Shown here: positions 59,374 through 61,239 of the stretch, piece after piece
How positions within the stretch are numbered: position 1 is the stretch's first letter
Layout: each line of letters starts with the position of its first letter
Program-made: the position numbers and the translations under genes
Virus record (IMG/VR): IMGVR_UViG_3300031951_021456
Span: 124,001-188,000 of that record
Reading direction: 5' to 3' (one strand)
From: a virus
DNA: 64,000 nucleotides
Notes under the pieces: generated by a model
Told to the model about the DNA's origin: nothing
Databases searched by the model: none
Seen by the model: only the letters and a program-made list of their open reading frames with translations

Positions 59374-61239
59374 TTAAGTATTTTTAACTTTCAGTTCTTT
59401 AAGTTGGGATTCATCTACTGTTGATGGAGCATTTATAAGTAAACATCTAGATTGCTGAGTTTTTGGAAATGCAATGACATCTCTTATAGATTCTTCTTCA
59501 GCTAAAAGCATCACCATTCTATCAAGCCCAAATGCTATTCCTCCATGTGGTGGAGTCCCCATATCCAAAGCATCTAAAAGAAATCCGAATTGTTGTTCAA
59601 TTTCTTCCTCAGTAAGACCAATAAATTCAAAAACTCTTCTTTGTAAATTTGAATCATGTATTCTTAAAGAACCTCCACCAAGCTCAATACCATTCAATAC
59701 TAAATCATATGCTTTTGCAATAGACTCAGAATTAATAGAACTTTCATCCGAAATGCCACAGAAAGGATGATGTAAAGCTTTTAAATGACCATTAGTTTCA
59801 TCTTGTTCAAACATTGGAAAATCTATAACCCATAAAAATCTTGGTTCGTTTTCAGGACTTATGAGATTAAGTTCTCTTGCCAAATATTGACGAAGCTGTC
59901 CTAAAGATTTATTTACAACATTTAAAGTTCCTGCTGCAAATAGAATTAATGTTCCTGGTGCTGCTTCAGTTCTTTTTAACAACTCAAGTTTAATCTCATC
60001 AGATAAGTTATCTTTAATTGCCCCAATTGTGTCAACCTCTCCATTGTCTCTTACTCTAATAAAGGCAAGACCAGAACCACCAGAGGATTGAACTTCACTA
60101 AAAATATCACCTCCAGGTTTAATTCTTACATTGCTGATTAAATTATTACCATTGGGAATGGATATACATTTTACAACTCCACCATTTTGAATTGCACTAG
60201 AGAAAATTTTAAATCCAAAATCAACAAATAAATCGCTCATGTTGATTAGTTTTAAATCATATCTAAGATCAGGCTTATCCGAACCATACTGATCCATAGC
60301 TTCATTCCAAGTCATTCTCTGAAATGGTAAGTCTAATTTAATTCCTTTAATAGAAAGCCAAATTTGTTGAATAAGCCTTTCATTTAATTCAAGAATTTCA
60401 TCTTGAGTCATGAAGCTCATTTCCATATCTAATTGAGTAAATTCTGGCTGCCTATCAGAACGAGGATCTTCATCTCTGAAACATTTAGCGATCTGATAAT
60501 ATTTCTCAAATCCACCAGTCATCAGTAATTGTTTAAAGATTTGAGGTGATTGTGGTAACCCAAACCACTCTCCTTCATGCATTCTACTAGGAACCAAATA
60601 GTCTCTAGCACCTCCTTTTGTAGAGCGAATAAGAATTGGAGTTTCAATCTCAATAAAACCTACATTTTCAAGAAAATTGCGAATAGTCTTTGCAGTTTCA
60701 TGGCGAATAAGAAGATTTCGGGTCATGTTCTCTCGCCTTAAGTCAAGATACCGATGTTTCAATCTTATCTCATCTCTTACAATTTCTTGACCAGAAACTG
60801 AAAAAGGAAGAATTGATTTTATAGAATTTAGAACAACAATATCTTGAATATCTATTTCAATTTTTCCGGTATATATCTTCTCATTAACTGATTCTTGGGG
60901 TCTTTCTTTTACGACCCCACAAACTTGAATGACCGTTTCTTCTTTTAGTTGTTCAGCAATTGAAAATAAGTTTTCTCCAATTTCAGGGCTAACTGTTAGT
61001 TGAACAATTCCAGAACGATCCCTAAGATCAATGAATATAAAACCACCATGATCTCTTCGGCTATGAACCCACCCACAAAGTTTAACCTTTTGGTTAATTT
61101 CTTCAGAACATAATTGACCGCAATGATGACTTCTCATTTGATTTTTGTTTGTTAATTCCACTAAAGTATATTTAAATGAAATTTTTTCTACTGGTAGAAG
61201 TGGTTGAATATTAATATCAACTAATAAGTTTTTATCCAT
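59374..61239 (-). CDS. aspS: Aspartyl-tRNA synthetase (bacterial type, full length)
   Basis: Joins Asp to tRNA(Asp) using ATP. All domains of the bacterial enzyme are present: the OB-fold anticodon domain ([20 protein letters not shown]), motif 1 region ([20 protein letters not shown]), the [13 protein letters not shown] loop, motif 2 ([20 protein letters not shown]), the GAD-type insertion ([15 protein letters not shown] ... [13 protein letters not shown]) and motif 3 ([20 protein letters not shown]). Length (about 621, against 590 in E. coli) and the ends resemble cyanobacterial AspRS, with a 30-40 residue N-terminal extension. I place the start at 61239, where ATGGATAA overlaps the previous stop; the family core starts at MRSHHCGQL (61137). 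Base composition is phage-like. No tRNA gene is seen nearby. Confidence 0.93.

Follow-up and report, generated by a model that had tools for sequence, protein, structure and literature searches.

A divergent aspartyl-tRNA synthetase gene in the accessory island of a T4-like jumbo cyanophage

Why would a cyanophage carry its own aspartyl-tRNA synthetase (AspRS)? The aspS gene that raises this question lies in a window of 64,000 nucleotides, bases 124001-188000 of the 247,932-bp virus record IMGVR_UViG_3300031951_021456. The genome is that of a T4-like jumbo phage of the Kyanoviridae whose closest isolate is Synechococcus phage B23, which it matches in gp23, sheath, terminase, UvsX and DNA polymerase. 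The initial annotation had described a complete AspRS with an anticodon domain and a GAD insertion, and our domain searches bear this out. The product of the aspS ORF matches PRK00476 with 797 bits and, over the full length, TIGR00459 (aspS_bact) with 755 bits for a curated cut-off of 374. Its frame is open for 629 codons counted from the first ATG (window 59374-61263, minus strand), and an OB-fold anticodon-binding domain (residues 60-145; 60829-61086, minus strand; PF01336, 4.5e-21), the class II core and a GAD domain typical of bacterial AspRS (residues 354-454; 59902-60204, minus strand; PF02938, 3.2e-16) were all matched. Full-length alignment and catalytic residues are common to the phage protein, E. 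coli AspRS (1c0a) and P. aeruginosa AspRS (4wj3).

Homology to AspRS begins at residue 43 (ATG at 61137) in all comparisons, residues 43-629 aligning with bacterial AspRS, and this conserved body of 587 aa (MRSHHCGQL...; 59374-61137, minus strand) is the probable minimal coding region. In the structure prediction, residues 1-41, for which the alignment held no homologue, have a pLDDT of about 25, while values after residue 43 are mostly 80-95, with the exception of the active-site lid loops, residues 152-172 and the C-terminus. An 8-base stop/start coupling to the upstream gene had been proposed. The overlap is present in the DNA, where the stop of an upstream 243-aa ORF (61232-61963, minus strand; phrog_20814, unknown function) meets the ATG of aspS residue 9 (61239), but the homology starts at residue 43 and not at residue 9. 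The 31 codons between the residue-9 ATG and the start of homology are stop-free (p about 0.045), and no clear Shine-Dalgarno sequence was seen by eye before any candidate start. The overlap may be used for translation of aspS. Downstream lies a 154-aa ORF without family match (58876-59340, minus strand). The partner genes have no IMG/VR relatives outside the same phage, their sole other match (24%) being in Bacillus phage BM15.

Does the protein look like a working enzyme? A loss of catalytic residues had been put forward as the observation that would speak against it, and such a loss was found at a single one of the residues checked. Mapped onto 1c0a, the residues S193, Q195, K198, R217, E219, D233, H448, H449, D475, E482, R489 and R537 (E. 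coli numbering), which we take to be Asp and ATP contacts, are intact in the phage protein, R537 corresponding by alignment to R582 in the motif 3 region (59494-59547, minus strand). The exception is the Glu of the flipping loop, E. coli E171, which is G217 in the phage. The loop (T215-D221; 60601-60621, minus strand) reads TKGGARD instead of the usual TPEGARD, and motif 2 (60460-60480, minus strand) reads FRDEDPR for the consensus FRDEDLR. Compared with 1c0a and 4wj3, the phage enzyme thus carries E171 -> G, P170 -> K and L221 -> P, the last being L267P in phage numbering. The loop changes P216K/E217G fall at columns where 106 of 106 bacterial AspRS keep Pro and Glu, and the flipping hairpin holds three of the four phage departures at fully invariant columns (p 0.007, the region having been chosen after looking). 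Elsewhere conservation is high, since 158 of the 172 columns that are at least 95% conserved among the 106 sequences are also kept. The flipping-loop Glu of AspRS is known to contact the amino group of Asp, the loop acting as a lid (PMC12262901), and its loss could reduce activity. An exact-pattern search found the altered loop in none of the other IMG/VR viral contigs. Separately, a KGGARDY match at the DNA level in one viral contig was rejected as a chance match inside a portal-like gene. We class the protein, as judged from its sequence, as a bacterial-type AspRS and file it as a variant owing to the missing Glu.

The changes at two columns invariant in 106 sequences, the Pro in motif 2 and a loop pattern seen in no other viral contig would fit an impaired or repurposed enzyme, in which the loss of the Glu abolishes charging and leaves another role such as tRNA binding. 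We consider this unlikely, as all the other checked catalytic residues are retained together with the anticodon and GAD domains, which would be dispensable for a decaying or repurposed enzyme. The concentration of departures in the hairpin would suit counter-defence, namely a replacement AspRS whose altered lid is poorly bound by an inhibitor of the aminoacyl-adenylate type or by another host factor that hits AspRS. Asp-sulfamoyl adenylates do target AspRS and engage the flipping-loop Glu (PMC12262901), a second phage AspRS described below also deviates at two of these invariant columns, and a NADAR gene in the island as well as NAD-salvage and RNA-repair genes in the genome would be in keeping with such a role. 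However, no sign of such a defence was found in hosts, the Glu is still present in the second phage AspRS, and the lost substrate contact would also lower the affinity for Asp, so that counter-defence appears quite improbable.

The position of aspS in the genome was considered with respect to related phages. The gene lies inside an accessory block of about 23 kb, mostly of minus-strand genes, between gp23 and gp3/uvsW (genome 173.7-197.1 kb, as delimited by synteny with B23 and 18 contigs; window part 49871-64000). The gene for the major capsid protein gp23 (47463-48878, plus strand; PF07068, 1.2e-142; 75% identity to B23) marks its left border. The distance from gp23 to gp3 is within about 1 kb in 18 related contigs, and the corresponding interval of B23 measures about 2.4 kb. 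Among the related contigs, a similar island was seen only in the nearest relative, whose contig ends inside it, and a PF00152 synthetase in none of 20, many of them fragments. This hypervariable location and the lack of aspS in B23 and these 20 contigs would be compatible with a passenger gene or an assembly artefact without any role, an explanation that we hold to be very improbable. First, 17.9 kb around aspS are base-identical in two further IMG/VR records, 3300031857_000196 and 3300031758_000232, which may stem from related samples. Because the identical stretch recurs there, the contig does not appear to be chimeric at aspS, an artefact that the initial annotation had singled out as a possible objection. 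Second, the frame is open and keeps its conserved columns along a long branch, and a homologue exists in a related phage contig.

Other features of the island and genome are worth recording. The NADAR-domain gene (63662-64000 of the window, on to genome 188180; genome 187662-188180, minus strand) was assigned by sequence (NADAR, 3.3e-46; phrog_1017, 1.4e-28) and is homologous to B23 gp47. With NMNAT-Nudix (genome 51499-52560) and NAMPT (54044-55420) it makes up an NAD-salvage set; the NADAR homologue sits between these two genes in B23 and in the AspRS island here. At the island's left margin, a C-5 cytosine methyltransferase frame (window 49871-50806, plus strand) is interrupted by one in-frame stop, and a 266-aa fragment within the island (genome 192229-193029, minus strand) resembles a portion of the T4-type large terminase (about 30% identity). 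Small dispersed paralogues starting MKISKxHQxFAD...FLGPNWKDVLNFW occur in the window (54634-55759) and elsewhere (genome 7721-8786, 50348-51193, 71430-72163 and 193730-194170); the family forms genome-wide DNA repeats of 78-91% identity.

To which lineage does the enzyme belong? Two AspRS trees were built, with 55 and 36 rows; in these, the phage protein joins 24 or 15 sequences, respectively, from cyanobacteria with 1.7-3.7 Mb genomes and clusters with the alpha-cyanobacterial AspRS at a bootstrap of 100, on a long branch of about one change per column. The cyanobacterial origin proposed from the first inspection is upheld by this phylogeny, and the long branch, together with an AspRS of 57% identity at another locus in a related phage contig, agrees with the old acquisition that had also been suggested. 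Since the conserved columns and all catalytic residues checked but one have been kept despite such a branch, the phage AspRS has been under constraint. It shares 62-64% identity, the domains and the clade with alpha-cyanobacterial AspRS of the Synechococcus/Cyanobium/Prochlorococcus type but lacks their short insert near residue 512, the TKGGARD loop and the FRDEDPR motif being on the phage side only. CsoSCA, a mark of alpha-carboxysomes, was detected in 15 of 15 tested genomes of the clade and in none of four other cyanobacteria.

The same genomes were searched for the components of Asn-tRNA(Asn) formation. AsnRS did not exceed the curated cut-off in any of the 15 alpha-cyanobacterial genomes, versus four out of four other cyanobacteria, and GatB, the component of GatCAB that was searched, was found in all 15. 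An indirect pathway to Asn-tRNA(Asn) is known (PMC4206432), and because AsnRS is absent and GatB present, the alpha-cyanobacterial AspRS must also aspartylate tRNA(Asn). An origin in such a lineage fits a non-discriminating AspRS, a property that the phage enzyme would have retained. A His at E. coli position 30 in the anticodon domain is a signature of non-discriminating AspRS; the phage protein has it, as do most beta-cyanobacterial AspRS, whose tested genomes have AsnRS. AspRS matches in INPHARED (among them those of Microcystis phage MaAM05 and of the MD-2021a contigs) were rejected as cyanophage AspRS, with bacterial-looking neighbourhoods and positions outside the cyanobacterial clade. 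In MaAM05 (MW495066.1), the surroundings of aspS (hppA, gatA, coaE, kimA, pgcA) look bacterial and the record may be non-phage there.

The related phage AspRS was found on the 125-kb contig IMGVR_UViG_3300044591_002420 (hereafter L215), which carries a syntenic Kyanoviridae backbone in the gp32 to gp7 region; it contains no gp23, which is what a contig ending ahead of the capsid genes would show. Its AspRS occupies a different locus and, unlike that of the window phage, keeps both the TPEGAR loop and the insert. It thus retains the flipping-loop Glu yet departs at two invariant columns where the window phage also departs. The trees suggest that the two phage enzymes may be sisters, a grouping that is not secure (support 88/53). 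In L215, the genes for AspRS, LysRS, an RNA ligase and a PNK-like kinase are grouped within 8 kb; a ClpS homologue lies in the same stretch. This grouping, as well as the RNA-ligase matches and the CCA-adding enzyme of the window phage, raises the idea of tRNA repair and recharge, whereby AspRS would act alongside RNA ligases, a CCA-adding enzyme and the kinase to bring back into use tRNAs that host anticodon nucleases have cleaved. Cleavage of tRNAs does not, however, make a synthetase limiting, and aspS of the window phage is not adjacent to RNA-repair genes; we find this explanation hard to favour and decidedly improbable.

Phage synthetases as a kind are already known. Huge phages, with genomes above 200 kb, are reported to carry up to 15 of them each (PMC7162821), and Trp- and Lys-tRNA synthetases are listed for Microcystis phage PhiMa05 (PMC8093824). 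The argument that synthetases are unusual outside jumbo phages consequently fails here, the phage itself measuring 247,932 bp. The present case resembles the huge-phage synthetases in pairing a genome above 200 kb with a host-related enzyme, and differs from them (PMC7162821) in that the record has no cognate phage tRNA, the lid residue is lost and the donor lineage has no AsnRS. What is new, on our reading of the sequence, is first the host lineage, in which one enzyme serves two amino acids, and second the absence of the loop Glu.

The phage encodes a second synthetase, a complete TyrRS (genome 72172-73320, plus strand, outside the window; PF00579 and S4) with intact HLGH and KMSKS motifs. 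It is 46-52% identical to cyanobacterial TyrRS, has no B23 homologue, gave no close IMG/VR relative in a single-sequence search and is placed with uncertainty in its tree (branch 3.26). PF00133 and PF00587 searches revealed no further synthetase in the phage or L215 records. A Pfam scan covered most ORFs above 180 aa without B23 homologue, other than one of 910 aa and several that were divided between 20-kb pieces of the sequence, the first batch being limited to the best 25 of 34 families. Charging of a phage tRNA had been offered as one role for the AspRS; this is not supported, as neither tRNA-Asp nor tRNA-Asn genes were found in the 247,932 bp of the possibly incomplete record, whose five tRNA genes are Met (two), Leu, Arg and Gly. 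B23 encodes tRNA-Lys, tRNA-Tyr and tRNA-Asp, all three missing from the phage record, and has no annotated aminoacyl-tRNA synthetase and no AspRS or TyrRS homologue.

Residue use of the phage was compared with that of potential hosts, for which 20 stretches of six alpha-cyanobacterial genomes and a single short one of a seventh were used (52-67% GC). Lys (2.99), Tyr (2.75) and Asn (2.74), followed by Ile (2.16), have the highest phage/host ratios; smaller ratios would be expected with low-GC Prochlorococcus-like hosts. Lys, Asn and Tyr are the top three over-used residues against each of the six hosts. Between them, the two phages encode synthetases for Asp/Asn, Tyr and Lys, which suggests that the choice of synthetases may reflect supply and demand. 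Against this, the match is post hoc and comes from two phages: when about 18 synthetases are ordered by demand, with Asp plus Asn counted for AspRS, this enzyme takes fifth place, and the uncorrected p for three synthetases all falling among the first five is about 0.012.

Altogether, we favour, with a probability of about one half, a working but divergent AspRS that was gained long ago from the alpha-cyanobacterial host lineage and has been kept to meet the demand for Asn and Tyr. In this scheme, aspS would have been taken from a picocyanobacterial lineage and retained in the accessory island of a T4-like cyanophage. The host AspRS would serve both tRNA(Asp) and tRNA(Asn), and the phage copy would add to the supply of both in the course of infection. 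Alongside the phage-encoded TyrRS, it would cover the extra need for Asn and Tyr that the AT-rich phage proteome creates. We infer that the phage enzyme is active, non-discriminating, expressed and beneficial. The initial proposal that it keeps translation supplied is retained as the best reading, now narrowed to the demand for Asp together with Asn and for Tyr. The gene is nevertheless dispensable for such a life style, since most relatives lack a PF00152 synthetase and B23 shows the same residue bias without a synthetase. A broader version, in which cyanophages pick synthetases (Asp/Asn, Tyr, Lys) for over-used residues and the AspRS lid has also been remodelled, altering the handling of substrate, tRNA or inhibitor, is speculative and seems rather unlikely. 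A natural AspRS without the flipping-loop Glu would be useful for asking what this invariant residue does. Moreover, the favoured reading offers a testable reason why particular synthetases are found in phages, namely the gap in composition between phage and host, which would be sharper where a single host AspRS serves two amino acids.
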